Assembly: GCA_003135855.1 (NCBI GenBank)
Contig: PNBD01000153.1
Coordinates: 56,315-106,322, forward strand
DNA from: Deltaproteobacteria bacterium
GTDB lineage: Bacteria; Desulfobacterota; Binatia; Binatales; Binataceae
Reading direction: 5' to 3'
Length of the DNA: 50,008 bases
Part shown: in pieces, positions 18,601-45,364 of the stretch
Numbering within the stretch: the stretch's first letter is position 1
Layout of the letters: each line of letters begins with the position of its first letter
The notes under the pieces: model-generated
What the model was told of the DNA's origin: nothing
Databases searched by the model: none
Seen by the model: only the letters and a program-made list of their open reading frames with translations
Made by a program: the position numbers and the translations under genes

Positions 18601-18632
18601 CCTTACTTTTTGCTTGCCTTAATTTTTGCTTG
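18601..18632. repeat. 16-bp tandem duplication at the DUF35 gene end
   Basis: Two consecutive 16-bp units, CCTTACTTTTTGCTTG and CCTTAATTTTTGCTTG, differ at one base. The second overlaps the stop codon of the DUF35 gene (18619-18621), so the duplication lies across the gene end and its 3' flank. Confidence 0.85.
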
Positions 18633-19059
18633 GACGGTACGAAAAAGCTACCACGTCATGGCCTTCACGATCCTTGGCCGCGACGCTGGTCACCAATTCG
18701 ACCGGCAAATTGAAGACTTTGTTCGGTTCCTTCTGCGCCTGATCGAAATCGACGTCGATCAGGTTCGCGCGGACGCTGATGCCCTCGGGCAGATCGACGA
18801 TCGCGGTCACATAGGGCGTCTTAATTCCGGGGAACGACTGATGCACCACCGAAAAGACGTACACCTTGCCCTTATCGGACAGCGAAATCGGCGAGAACTT
18901 CCCCGCTTCGCCGCACTTCGAGCATGCGACCCGATTGGGATCGAGATAAATCGCACCGCAGGCGCATTTGATTCCTTCAAGATGCGGCTTGGGCGCCAGT
19001 TTCAACCATGGAACAATCGGACGCGGTCCCGTGACAGTAGCTTGAGCCTGCTCAGCCAT
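18619..19059 (-). CDS. DUF35 / OB-fold zinc-ribbon acyl-CoA-binding protein
   Basis: A 146-residue DUF35 (ChsH2/Rv3541-type) protein. The N-terminal rubredoxin-like zinc ribbon has CACG and CSKCG (~residues 33-54), followed by an OB fold (KVYVFSVVHQSFPG, YVTAIVDLPEG). Members pair with SCP2-type thiolases in Ltp2-DUF35 aldolase or acetoacetyl-CoA thiolase/HMG-CoA synthase complexes, where they channel acyl-CoA. The adjacent thiolase on the same strand supports such a pair. GGAGGAT precedes the ATG. Their exact reaction is not shown. Confidence 0.88.
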   Translation of the reverse strand: MAEQAQATVTGPRPIVPWLKLAPKPHLEGIKCACGAIYLDPNRVACSKCGEAGKFSPISLSDKGKVYVFSVVHQSFPGIKTPYVTAIVDLPEGISVRANLIDVDFDQAQKEPNKVFNLPVELVTSVAAKDREGHDVVAFSYRPSKN

Positions 19060-19233
19060 ACGATCCTCCGAACCAATGATGGTGCTGATGAACGACTAGC
19101 GCCGCTCTTGCGCGGCGTGGTCTTTCTTCTTTGGCCGAAGTTTCCCACAGGGTCGGCAGATCGTCAACCCTCTCGCCCGCACCGTTTAACATGCTTTGTA
19201 TGCCTCAAAAGGATCTGACGCTCTGGCAGTTTA

Positions 19234-38344: not shown

Positions 38345-38360
38345 TGTTTCACGTGAAACA
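38345..38360. promoter_or_regulatory. parS centromere site 1
   Basis: TGTTTCACGTGAAACA, a perfect 16-bp palindrome identical to the bacterial parS consensus TGTTnCACGTGAAACA bound by ParB. Outer bases extend the symmetry to 24 bp (AAAATGTTTC...GAAACATTTT). Confidence 0.93.
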
Positions 38361-38373
38361 TTTTGGTGCGCAA

Positions 38374-38389
38374 TGTTTCACGTGAAACA
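38374..38389. promoter_or_regulatory. parS centromere site 2
   Basis: A second perfect TGTTTCACGTGAAACA palindrome, 29 bp from site 1 centre to centre, with symmetry extending to 18 bp. Close spacing favours cooperative ParB loading. Confidence 0.93.
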
Positions 38390-38445
38390 TATCGGGCTCG
38401 GTGCCGCTAACTATTAGTCATGTTTTTGCAGTCTTTTTTTGGGAA

Positions 38446-38461
38446 TGTTTCACGTGAAACA
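38446..38461. promoter_or_regulatory. parS centromere site 3
   Basis: A third perfect TGTTTCACGTGAAACA, 72 bp after site 2, with symmetry extending to 22 bp (GAATGTTTC...GAAACATTC). It is embedded in ORF 38420-38806, which supports that ORF being non-coding. Confidence 0.93.
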
Positions 38462-38941
38462 TTCAGTTCAGGAGAACGAAACGCGAATAGCGAAGATCGG
38501 GGAAAGGATTTCCGAAAGCTCACGCAGGTGGAGTTTACCCTGAGGTCCGGTCGAAGGGGGCTTCCCCGCGCAGCCGACTTCGGGCCGCAGGGCCGAATCG
38601 CAGTAGGAGAAGATGCGCGCTCCTCGCTGTTAGAAGCGAAGTGTGGCGCGAGAAAATGGCTGGTTGTTAGCGAGGTCGCCAGCGCCGCTTCCCCGCCTCG
38701 GGTCAGGCTCCTTGAATGGCAGCGCGCCCACACCCCGCCCATTGTGTCGCCGCAGCCGGCACGTCCTCTCCGTCCCTCAGCCGCGCCCCTGCCCCACCCT
38801 GAGTAACCTCAGGGCGATCGAGTTAGTTAACCACGCCGACTCTTCTTCTCACCGCACAGGCATCCGAGAGCACGCCAATTCTTATGATTGCCGAGGAACT
38901 GTAATCGAGGAGGGGGGCATGATGGTGGACTGAGATGGTGT

Positions 38942-38965
38942 TATCACCACTCTAGAGCAGTGATA
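38942..38965. promoter_or_regulatory. Operator-like dyad upstream of the accessory cassette
   Basis: TATCAC-CA-CTCTAGAG-CA-GTGATA: both half-sites and the 8-bp centre are perfect inverted repeats, with only the CA spacers asymmetric. It lies 47 nt upstream of the ATG at 39012, a position that suits a repressor of that gene pair. Confidence 0.5.
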
Positions 38966-39011
38966 TCATCTGGCGACTCGGAGTTACCCGCGGCAGAGGA
39001 GAGTCAAAGCG

Positions 39012-39839
39012 ATGGACCACGTGTTACCTAGCGACGTTGTCCAAGTGATCGATGAGGAATTTCCCATTACTCTTGGTCTCACTCCCCCTTCAAGTTCAAG
39101 TCAGGTTGCCACCGAGGGGTACCGTGCGGCGTCAATGCTGCAGGGTATTTTGGAGCTCATTCGACGTGTTCCGGAAGAGTTTGTGACAATCGATTCGAAA
39201 GACCGTGCACGGCTGATTCTGGCGTCCATATCTCTCGAACAAGCTGCCGAATTCGCGCACCAAAACCGGCACCCTGTGGCTTGGCCTCGGCTAAAAGATA
39301 ACACTCCATGCCTAGATGTCGTGCGAGAGGTTCTAAAGAAGTGTTCCGATGAGGCACCGTCTCAATCGACGACCGGACTGGAGTTTATTGAAGACCACGA
39401 ATTTCGAAAAGCACTGCTCATCGACCTAGGCTCGACCGAGAGAGCCGTGAGCGGAAACGAATGGAAGGCCGCAACGGTACTTGCCGGCTCTATTATCGAA
39501 GCCTTGCTGCTTTGGGCGATTCAACAACATAAACTTGTCGACCGATCTGAAGCGATGAAGAGAGCCGTGAAGAGCAAGCGGCTCACGAAGGCCTTGCAGG
39601 TCAACGATTTGACGGCTTGGGAGTGGAGTCTACATCCGTACATCGAAGTCGCGTACGAGCTGGGAGAGATCAAAGAACATACAGCCAATCCCTGCCGAGA
39701 GGCGAAGTACTACCGTAATCTCATACATCCAGCGGCGGCTGAGCGGGAGAAGGAACAGTGTACCCGAGGGAAGGCACACGGTGCTCTAGGCGCGGTGTAC
39801 AGCACGATTGAAGATTTGGAAGAGAGGCACCTGTCATGA
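39012..39839 (+). CDS. Uncharacterised soluble protein of accessory cassette
   Basis: A 275-residue protein without a recognised family. The N-terminal half is helical and acidic; no signal peptide or membrane helix is seen. Near the C-terminus (~residues 236-245) lies YYRNLIHPAAA, an R-x3-H arrangement reminiscent of, but shorter than, the R-x4-6-H of HEPN RNases; many accessory and defence-linked proteins carry similar RNLIHP motifs. GGAGAG precedes the ATG, and an operator-like dyad is 47 nt upstream. Codon use is unlike its neighbours, with frequent AGA, CTA, AAA and TCT. It overlaps the downstream membrane-protein gene by ATGA, so both are co-translated. Toxin, defence or regulatory roles are possible but unproven. 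Confidence 0.8.
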   Translation: MDHVLPSDVVQVIDEEFPITLGLTPPSSSSQVATEGYRAASMLQGILELIRRVPEEFVTIDSKDRARLILASISLEQAAEFAHQNRHPVAWPRLKDNTPCLDVVREVLKKCSDEAPSQSTTGLEFIEDHEFRKALLIDLGSTERAVSGNEWKAATVLAGSIIEALLLWAIQQHKLVDRSEAMKRAVKSKRLTKALQVNDLTAWEWSLHPYIEVAYELGEIKEHTANPCREAKYYRNLIHPAAAEREKEQCTRGKAHGALGAVYSTIEDLEERHLS

Positions 39840-40321
39840 ACTGGCTACCGCATGACCTAGCGACCGTTCTGGCAATCCTGGCACTGTTCCTGATGTACCC
39901 AGTTAGCTTGCTTGCGAATCTCAGCACTCCGAAGTTGCGGGATTGGTGGGCGGCTCGGTCTCTAGAGGCTCTCAGGAAACGAAGGAATCACTTACTTGCG
40001 TTTCAAAAGGAAATAAGTCACGCACCGATGGTTGACGGCGCTACCGATGCCATGTTGGGGCAACTGAACAGGCTCAATTTTGCCATCGCGCAGGGTATAC
40101 ATATCATCCTTACTGGCATGTTGCTGATGCTTTCGACCGTTCCTCCCCCAAAGCACTCGACACCTATCCTAGTGGGATTCGGATTGCTATTTGTGACGAA
40201 CCTGGCTTATGGCGTCCGGTGTAGTAGGGACGCGACGAAGTTTCATCAGCGCGTTTCACCATCGTGGAGAGCGCGTATTGCTTGGGAGATCGAAAACCTC
40301 GAAGCGAAGCTAGCGCGTTAG
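39836..40321 (+). CDS. Uncharacterised membrane protein of accessory cassette
   Basis: A 161-residue protein with one N-terminal hydrophobic helix (ATVLAILALFLMYPVSLLAN), then a charged cytoplasmic-looking segment (~35-85) and two closely spaced helices (IHIILTGMLLMLSTV and ILVGFGLLFVTNLAYGV), ending in an amphipathic tail (IAWEIENLEAKLAR). No family was recognised. Its start is in an ATGA overlap with the preceding stop, and GAGAGG lies upstream inside the first gene, so translation is coupled. The combination of a soluble protein and a small membrane protein is a common layout for effector systems, which is the only functional hint. Confidence 0.8.
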   Translation: MNWLPHDLATVLAILALFLMYPVSLLANLSTPKLRDWWAARSLEALRKRRNHLLAFQKEISHAPMVDGATDAMLGQLNRLNFAIAQGIHIILTGMLLMLSTVPPPKHSTPILVGFGLLFVTNLAYGVRCSRDATKFHQRVSPSWRARIAWEIENLEAKLAR

Positions 40322-40407: not shown

Positions 40408-40621
40408 GTTTTCGAAACCGGTACCGGCGGCGCTTACGCGCCGCTGTCCGAGATCCTTCGACTCCGGCAGCCTCCGCTCAGGATGACGGAACGGAGCAGC
40501 ATTCTTCAGGATGACGGAGGGGGCGGAGCGGCTCATTCGGAAAGCGGACCCTCTCCTGCCGCCTCACCGCTACGCGTTGTTCGGCGTCGTCCTCTCCCAA
40601 GCGGGGCGAGGGGAAGAGCGG
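40408..40621. repeat. Mosaic intergenic repeat, copy 1
   Basis: This fills the 325-nt gap between the accessory cassette and pqiC (40322-40646), which contains no gene. It holds TTCGAAACCGGTACCGG, two CAGGATGACGGA units, and an ~87-nt core (40535-40621: ATTCGGAAAGCGGACCCTCTCC ... GAGGGGAAG) that recurs with few changes at 41348-41434. ACCCTCTCC and GGCGAGGGG at the ends form an imperfect inverted repeat. Confidence 0.8.
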
Positions 40622-41261: not shown

Positions 41262-41490
41262 TTGGGCTCCTTTTATTGCTGTGGCCGCGCGAGCCAAGGA
41301 CCGCTTCGCGGTTCCGAAACCGGTACCGGCATCTTTATCTTGTAGCGATTCGGAAAGCGGACCCTCTCCTGACGTCTCACCGCTGCGCGTTGTTCGGCGT
41401 CGTCCTTTCCCGGACTGGGAGAGGGGAAGAACGGCTATTACTTGGCCTATCAATTGCCGACCTATGATTTGGCCTACTATCACTTGGCCT
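41241..41490. repeat. Dispersed CCAAGTGATA motifs at the pqiB-pqiC junction
   Basis: On the minus strand the short motif CCAAGTGATA occurs at the pqiB stop (GCC AAG TGA) and twice more before pqiC (CCCAAGTGATAAG, GGCCAAGTGATAGC), plus variants GGCCAAATCATA and GGCCAAGTAATA. The longer mosaic repeat (41310-41434) sits between the two groups. Each GTGA could serve as a stop-start overlap, suggesting that the junction was duplicated. Confidence 0.6.
41310..41434. repeat. Mosaic intergenic repeat, copy 2, between pqiB and pqiC
   Basis: It shares TTCCGAAACCGGTACCGG and the ~87-nt core (41348-41434) with copy 1 at 40408-40621, in the same orientation. It separates the pqiB stop from the likely pqiC start and happens to keep pqiC's frame open to 41483. 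Confidence 0.8.
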
Positions 41491-43766: not shown

Positions 43767-44560
43767 GCGGGCTCCTTGGCCATACCATCGCCGGCGGCGG
43801 GTCGCTGCGCTTCGTCCGCCCACTGGATCTTCTCCCACACCTCGCGCGAGTCGAAGGCGGCTTGCATCGCGGCCAGCAGAAAGACCAGCACCCATAGAAC
43901 GAACAGCGCAACGCCCGGGATCACCGTCGCGTAATCCGCAATCTTGACCAGCGCGACGAGCACGCCGACCATCATGACTTCGATCATGCTCCAGATCCGC
44001 GTAGTTGGGTGATGGCGCAGCAGCGCACCGACCCATCGCGGCGGGCGTTCGCGCCGACCGGCGAGCACGATCGCGAGCATCAGGCCGATTTGCAGCGCCG
44101 GTGCAATCACGGCGGTGAAGAGCACCAGTATCGCGACGATCTGCTGGTCGTTATCCCACAGATGCTTGGCGCCTCCGATCACCGTAGTGGACGCATCGCG
44201 CCCGACGATCGTAAGGCCGAGCATCGGCACGGAGTTCGCAACGACGTAGAGCACTGCGGCCGCGAGCGTCAGCGCAAGCGTCCGATTGAGCGAATCCTCG
44301 CGGCGGCGCCAGAGCTCCTTGTTGCAACGCGGGCATCGCGCAGACGCGCCGGGCGCGAGATCGGGAAGGCGCTGCAGCAAATCGCAGTGCAGACACGCGA
44401 TGAGCCCGTGGTCGCCAACTGGCTGATTGTAGGCTTCGCTACTCAATTCGCTGAGCGATCGCCAAATTGCGATATGAGGTGAGTCAAACTTTGTCGGCCC
44501 CTTTCGGTTGCGATTCGGCAGAACCGGGATGAGTTTCCCGCCCGGCGCGGTCGGTTGCAA
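43763..44560 (-). CDS. pqiA: PqiA-like membrane protein, first half
   Basis: A PqiA-domain protein of up to 265 residues from TTG 44560. The conserved part starts with LIACLHCDLLQRLP (~residue 53) and CPRC (~78), a zinc ribbon, followed by four membrane helices (LALTLAAAVLYVVANSVPML, IVAILVLFTAVIAPAL, IEVMMVGVLVALVKIADY, LFVLWVLVFLLAAM). The poorly conserved N-terminal ~50 residues suggest that translation may begin later. It is fused by GTGA overlap to the second PqiA gene and then pqiB. Together these would form the inner-membrane part of an outer-membrane lipid transport system. Confidence 0.8.
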   Translation of the reverse strand: MQPTAPGGKLIPVLPNRNRKGPTKFDSPHIAIWRSLSELSSEAYNQPVGDHGLIACLHCDLLQRLPDLAPGASARCPRCNKELWRRREDSLNRTLALTLAAAVLYVVANSVPMLGLTIVGRDASTTVIGGAKHLWDNDQQIVAILVLFTAVIAPALQIGLMLAIVLAGRRERPPRWVGALLRHHPTTRIWSMIEVMMVGVLVALVKIADYATVIPGVALFVLWVLVFLLAAMQAAFDSREVWEKIQWADEAQRPAAGDGMAKEPA

Positions 44561-44580
44561 TATCAGCCGTGGGTGGTCAG

Positions 44581-44741
44581 ATCACGAAGCGGCGACATGG
44601 TGCTAAGAAACGGCGCGCGAAGGCGACGTCGATCTACTTCGAGGACCGGATGGATTGAAGTTCGAGGTGGTCCATCAGCCGGCGATTGTGAGGAGACACG
44701 GGGAGCTGATGCGCCTGGCGGAACAGGCGATGAAGCACTGA
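44581..44741 (+). other. Possible degraded gene remnant
   Basis: Between pqiA and the small protein at 44753 lies a 190-nt gap with a plus-strand reading (TKRRHGAKKRRAKATSIYFE) that hits a stop in ATG GAT TGA; a +1 shift gives KFEVVHQPAIVRRHGELMRL to a TGA at 44741. The coding-like composition suggests a small broken gene, but no family was recognised. Confidence 0.2.
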
Positions 44742-44752
44742 AGGGGAGGACT

Positions 44753-45010
44753 TCAGGCGCCGGGCTTTTCCGCGTCGTGGGCGTGGCCGATCGCGTGGCG
44801 AAGGCGGCGATCGAGCTTGGCGCAATTCAGGATGACCTTTTCCGATTGCACCGAATCGACGGCGCTCAATGGGACCGTGAAGTCGCCGGCATTCTCGACA
44901 TAGATTACCAACTCGGGCCGGCCGTCCGGCGAGACCACACGAACGGCGCCGAACTCCTCGCTGCCATCGGAAGTAAACGCCTGGAATCCAACTTTAATTT
45001 TTTCTTGCAT
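44753..45010 (-). CDS. Small conserved-looking protein of unknown function
   Basis: An 85-residue soluble protein. ATG 45010 is preferred; GTG 45022 lies 4 codons upstream, but the GGAGAG sequence touches it and so is better spaced for ATG. The chain alternates likely strands (KIKVGFQAFTSD, RVVSPDGRPELVIYVENAGDF) with a terminal helix (KLDRRLRHAIGHAHDAE), a compact beta-rich domain. One Cys. Codon and amino acid use agree with the surrounding genes. No function was recognised. It lies upstream of, and in the same orientation as, the pqi operon, with a 190-nt gap. Confidence 0.65.
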   Translation of the reverse strand: MQEKIKVGFQAFTSDGSEEFGAVRVVSPDGRPELVIYVENAGDFTVPLSAVDSVQSEKVILNCAKLDRRLRHAIGHAHDAEKPGA

Positions 45011-45118
45011 GATGTGACTCACTCTCCGCTGCGCAAGGGTCAGGACGATGAGATCGTCTCTACCTTCTCGAGCATCCGCTTAAATCAGTTTGGAGTCGAA
45101 TCGGGCGCAGGAGGCGGC

Positions 45119-45364
45119 TCAGATCTTCAGGACTGACCGGAAACGGACCTTGCCCGACATCATGCGGTCGTAGCCGTCGGCCGCGCGCTCCAGCGGGAAG
45201 ACCTCGATCATCGGGCGAACGCCGCTCAGCGCGGCGAATCTGAGCGCGTCTTCCGAGTCCCGGGAAGTTCCTGACGGCCAGCCGATGATCGATTTGCGCG
45301 CCCCGAGTAACTGTAACGACGAAACCGCGAACGGCTCCGGGCTCGCGCCCACGATGACGCGCTG
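45119..45364 (-). pseudogene. 3' remnant of a zinc-type alcohol dehydrogenase
   Basis: The last ~80 codons match the C-terminal end of medium-chain (MDR) alcohol dehydrogenases: RVIVGASPEPFAV, LLGARKSIIGWPSG, FPLERAADGYDRMMSG. About 260 N-terminal residues, including the zinc and coenzyme sites, are missing; upstream of 45364 the frame continues only as an antisense shadow of the phosphatase gene. So it is a truncated fragment, probably left by a deletion or insertion. Confidence 0.75.

Follow-up and report, generated by a model that had tools for sequence, protein, structure and literature searches.

A predicted HEPN-fold protein with a variant RNxxH motif, encoded beside a small membrane protein in a low-GC bacterial gene pair

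The cassette described here consists of two coupled genes, the first of which encodes a soluble protein that is most likely a member of an uncatalogued, DUF4145-related HEPN family characterized by an RNxxH motif, while the second encodes a predicted membrane protein without an assigned family. The C-terminal half of the gene 1 protein is confidently predicted to adopt the HEPN fold, as judged from a structure model. With roughly an even chance of being correct, the cassette can be read as an acquired HEPN effector, presumably a dormant RNase operating in an abortive-infection or toxin mode, together with a membrane partner that would anchor or restrain it. Pfam, NCBIfam, PHROGs and PADLOC all miss the family, whose active-site signature is shorter than the established rule allows. 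If the protein is an RNase, searches based on the Rx4-6H pattern overlook a set of defence effectors, and if it does not cleave RNA, a non-catalytic HEPN domain has been repeatedly recruited to defence loci. The features are listed in Table 1, numbered from the first nucleotide of the window, which is the whole 50,008-nucleotide stretch of DNA that was analysed.

Table 1. Positions of the cassette features and of neighbouring elements in the window.
Feature	Position	Strand	Description	Basis
Gene 1	39012..39839	+	Soluble protein of 275 aa; helical N-terminal region (1-120), predicted C-terminal HEPN-fold domain	ORF, relatives, AlphaFold2 model
Gene 2	39836..40321	+	161 aa, three hydrophobic segments, ATGA-coupled to gene 1	ORF, hydropathy
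Predicted HEPN-fold domain	39387..39836	+	Gene 1 residues 126-275	VIA-align 2, weak DUF4145 matches, hhalign
R235-N-L-I-H239-P240	39714..39731	+	Variant HEPN motif (Rx3H)	Alignment of 19 sequences, tally of 28
Imperfect dyad TGTTATCACCACTCT/AGAGCAGTGATATCA	38939..38968	.	Weak possible operator; overlaps a promoter-like match at 38941-38969	
Three exact parS palindromes	38345-38360, 38374-38389, 38446-38461	.	Inside a dispersed repeat	

Fold and family of the gene 1 protein

The structure of the gene 1 protein was predicted with the AlphaFold2 monomer model from an alignment of 18 sequences (pLDDT 88). The structural comparison suggested in the earlier note gave a divided result, as Foldseek alone, run with the whole model, ranked vinculin-type bundles at the top with non-significant E-values, whereas the candidates re-aligned with VIA-align 2 were nearly all HEPN domains. 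Among the first 26 matches, 25 are HEPN domains that cover residues ~118-275 of the protein with Z values of 8.1-10.6, and the only other one, 2kk1, aligns to the N-terminal half. The best match is HepT (6m6w; Z 10.6, 117 residues aligned, 2.6 A), followed by 1ufb (Z 10.4), 1o3u (Z 9.8), Csm6 (8jh1; Z 9.6) and AbiA (8oz7; Z 9.1), and the HEPN matches include TT1696, TM0613 and the C-terminal domain of AbiA. VIA-align 2 advises a Z of ~13 for helical bundles, below which matches can be trivial, and all values obtained for gene 1 are lower; despite this, the HEPN assignment is made because the matches belong nearly all to one superfamily. The model also displays the four-helix HEPN core. For the N-terminal region 1-120, generic helical bundles were the sole structural matches. 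A structure search of BFVD returned nothing useful, and sequence profile searches of the PDB gave no matches.

Neither protein had a meaningful match in the Pfam, NCBIfam, PHROGs or PADLOC collections, in agreement with the initial impression that both fall outside the known families; a match of gene 1 to REase_II in PADLOC (E 0.015) and a YAF2_RYBP match (E 0.21) were taken as noise. Single-sequence scans of genome contigs with the gene 1 and gene 2 proteins likewise yielded no matches. By whole-genome tblastn, gene 1 relatives were located in 6 of the 40 other genomes of the taxonomic family of the source, those in several of its genomes being 36-44% identical, and further relatives occur in the Komagataeibacter phage phiKM1 and in viral contigs, with the remoter ones matching the C-terminal half only. 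In two genomes, G036 and G004, the copy of the gene is interrupted by stops, which is a sign of turnover.

Composition and surroundings of the cassette

The two genes, which had been singled out as an ATGA-coupled low-GC cassette, are both present as open frames with the lowest GC among the long ORFs of the window (0.535 and 0.530 for genes 1 and 2, respectively), and their GC3 values of 0.56 and 0.59 compare to mostly 0.70-0.83 in the window, although GC3 is low also at 18610-19218 and 44555-45136, outside the cassette. The accompanying claim of an AGA/AGG excess holds clearly for gene 2, where these codons make up 5 of the 12 arginine codons, but is modest in gene 1 (3 of 18). Only 5 of 5000 base shuffles keep the gene 2 frame open, which makes a chance origin of this ORF unlikely. 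Gene 1 was probably acquired horizontally. The cassette is flanked by housekeeping genes, namely that of an S1/P1-type nuclease and MlaD/PqiB-like genes (the latter by inspection), and the surroundings in the window are likewise of a housekeeping character, with no defence island around it. The two flanking regions do not adjoin in the congener G004, where each is on a contig of its own, and the cassette is therefore located at a synteny break.

The dyad upstream of gene 1, earlier regarded as operator-like, does exist and pairs at 12 of 15 positions, but it is weak, as 4.3% of the dinucleotide shuffles reach the same pairing, and it is not common to the relatives, upstream of whose genes a resembling dyad was looked for and none was found. 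Also as described before, the flanks carry short repeats and lie beside parS, with three exact palindromes. The parS sites at 38345..38461 probably represent the neighbourhood rather than a component of the cassette. A parS copy is located ~200 bp upstream of the gene 1 relative in another genome (G001); a parS-gene 1 link was nevertheless rejected, because repeats bearing parS are dispersed across numerous contigs, and the proximity was taken to reflect shared insertion territory.

Two further observations concern the repeats themselves. In the source genome (G000, L060-L073), the TGTTTCACGTGAAACA parS palindrome occurs in 27 exact copies, compared to 0-8 in congeners. The copies form ~15 clusters distributed over many contigs, and many of them sit in a dispersed repeat that continues into AGTTCAGGAGAACGAAACGCGAA. 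As parS sites are usually few and close to the origin, the count in the source genome looks to be far above the usual. Separately, the intergenic DNA that follows the cassette has two copies of an 87-nt repeat, at 40535-40621 and 41348-41434, which are 89% identical.

Gene partners and the catalytic motif

The proposed affiliation of the pair with defence or toxin modules is backed by the loci in which gene 1 relatives are found, which are listed here singly and not as an enrichment over random genes. First, several relatives are associated with restriction genes. A family member at L112 (4380-5225) separates hsdM from hsdS in a type I restriction-modification (R-M) operon and follows HicAB-like genes, and the relative at L018 overlaps the gene for a BPTD_3080 restriction endonuclease and has an MqsA-like gene upstream. 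Next, relatives occur beside helicase and other ATPase genes: the one at L117 lies upstream of PDC-M23A/B, a HamB-like (Hachiman-like) helicase, and those on three Streptomyces plasmids touch AAA-domain genes, which in the two plasmids scanned combine an AAA_11/12 helicase with an MTES_1575 REase. In a Prevotella replicon (L121, 7986-10297) the family member adjoins and overlaps a caspase-domain gene, the pair being positioned downstream of conjugation-type genes, while PIN_12, FRG and Panacea are the neighbours at L014, L038 and L044, respectively. Finally, prophage phiKM1 (LC644974; L013, 5001-5774) carries an intact, unannotated 257-aa HEPN family member that adjoins HicAB and a RelA/SpoT-type synthetase near an integrase; the relatives at L014, L015 and L021 are near recombinases or integrases, and those at L017 and L019 stand alone amid housekeeping genes. 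A more general model, in which the RNxxH HEPN family supplies a plug-in effector, recombining with widely differing sensors (R-M systems, Hachiman-like helicases, caspases, helicase-nucleases), and forms a new anti-phage system with gene 2, is tentative and on the doubtful side.

As a separate observation, a similar unnamed gene of ~197 aa is found directly upstream of two distant relatives (L021, 6516-7106, and L023, 4869-5468); it has the motif DIR-F---K-P--D-Q and is perhaps a conserved partner of this subfamily.

The hydrophobic segments of the gene 2 protein are predicted by hydropathy at about residues 7-29, 80-102 and 109-129, and its structure model is uninformative (pLDDT 55). No relatives of gene 2 were found in 41 genomes of the taxonomic family, 395 genomes of the phylum, plasmids, phages or viral contigs; the best candidate, a weak match at L091, was rejected as it runs antisense to another, real gene. 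Next to the gene 1 relatives, which are either solitary, as many are, or paired with other partners, no gene 2 relative was encountered, and the conserved pairing that the earlier note had proposed to look for did not emerge in the collections searched. A single ancient two-gene module is thus not supported, because the homologues were never found together. The lack of gene 2 relatives and the many solitary relatives of gene 1 are also what would be expected if gene 2 were an unrelated passenger or a poorly constrained small gene, with gene 1 acting alone and the ATGA coupling being incidental. This is a serious possibility, if short of an even chance, and is opposed by the 4-nt overlap with a partner gene that recurs at L018, L112 and L118, and also at L121 if the caspase gene begins at an internal ATG, as well as by the deviant composition common to genes 1 and 2 and a gene 2 frame that is improbable by chance.

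In the reading of the cassette as an effector with a membrane partner, the role of gene 2 is proposed by analogy with the HEPN-plus-transmembrane layout of a known anti-phage system. The gene 1 protein would be a dormant RNase that halts growth once phage or other stress frees it, with the N-terminal helical region as its likely sensor or regulatory part. The translationally coupled gene 2 would most likely provide a membrane address, or an off-switch that holds the HEPN protein until the membrane is disturbed, or the trigger or sensor. The reading frames, their coupling, the deviant composition, the predicted HEPN fold, the invariant motif and the defence loci of relatives are observed, and it is RNase activity, toxicity, a defence role and all function of gene 2 that we infer in this model.

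The classical HEPN signature is Rx4-6H, and the likeness of RNLIHP to HEPN catalytic motifs, as put forward in the earlier note, is borne out in the fold but falls one residue short in the spacing, which is R-x3-H. The shortened motif makes catalysis uncertain and the weakest step of the mechanism. In the AlphaFold2 model the motif falls where the third long helix of the HEPN domain ends. Its R, N, H and P residues, along with G159 and E163, are invariant among the 19 aligned sequences, and RNxxH is retained in 28 of the 28 family members tallied, with the R-x3-H spacing each time. A genuine yet non-catalytic HEPN domain, which would bind RNA or a ligand and serve partner proteins in a regulatory or adaptor role, would account for a spacing that departs from Rx4-6H in every member while a DUF4145 HEPN outgroup protein keeps R-x4-H, and is consistent with the relatives' partners often carrying a nuclease of their own and with HEPN domains lacking the motif being regarded as non-catalytic (PMC3710099). 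However, the strict invariance of R, N and H over divergent sequences is what catalysis predicts, and the Asn following the Arg agrees with the rule that a polar residue stands directly after the R in HEPN proteins (PMC3710099), so that the non-catalytic alternative appears rather improbable. A plain toxin-antitoxin addiction pair of a HEPN toxin and a membrane antitoxin, which would retain a DNA segment without phage defence, is unlikely, as the gene 1 relatives have no conserved antitoxin and several are tied to restriction or helicase genes instead, even though the two-gene layout, the deviant composition, the isolation amid housekeeping genes and the vicinity of some relatives to toxin-antitoxin genes would suit it.

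Comparison with known systems

The claim of an undescribed system holds in part, in that the gene 1 family is uncatalogued, but HEPN effectors in defence loci and an anti-phage system consisting of HEPN and transmembrane proteins are already known (PMC3710099, PMC11087260, PMC12724294). With DUF4145 (PF13643), gene 1 shares the HEPN fold, and hhalign of the gene 1 family to a bona fide DUF4145 HEPN protein (prob 91%) aligns the RN..H regions with a one-residue gap. Weak DUF4145 matches are seen in 4 of 19 gene 1 family members; gene 1 itself is unmatched even at E 10, the RNxxH relatives score below the Pfam gathering cut-off, the motif is one residue shorter and the N-terminal region is distinct. 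DUF4145-like HEPN proteins are known from R-M operons, and the occurrence of HEPN proteins in such operons and with transmembrane segments has been predicted (PMC3710099). HepT of MntA-HepT, although the best structural match, is a short toxin made up of one domain and paired with an adenylylating antitoxin, while gene 1 has no MNT gene beside it.

The similarity to Tha-1 of the S. aureus phage 80alpha, an anti-phage RNase of 301 aa in which the HEPN domain is C-terminal and no N-terminal domain is recognised (PMC11087260), extends to the length of ~300 aa, the domain order with an uncharacterised N-terminal region and carriage by phages; in contrast to the R-x3-H of gene 1, Tha-1 has an R-x4-H motif (RNSIMH), and its trigger and RNase activity are proven. 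Finally, HEPN-TM is a staphylococcal anti-phage system of S. saprophyticus SS413 (PMC11087260, PMC12948488, PMC12724294). Compared in layout rather than in sequence, it resembles the present cassette in having a HEPN gene coupled to an adjoining gene whose product is a small transmembrane protein, the DNA segment being probably mobile.
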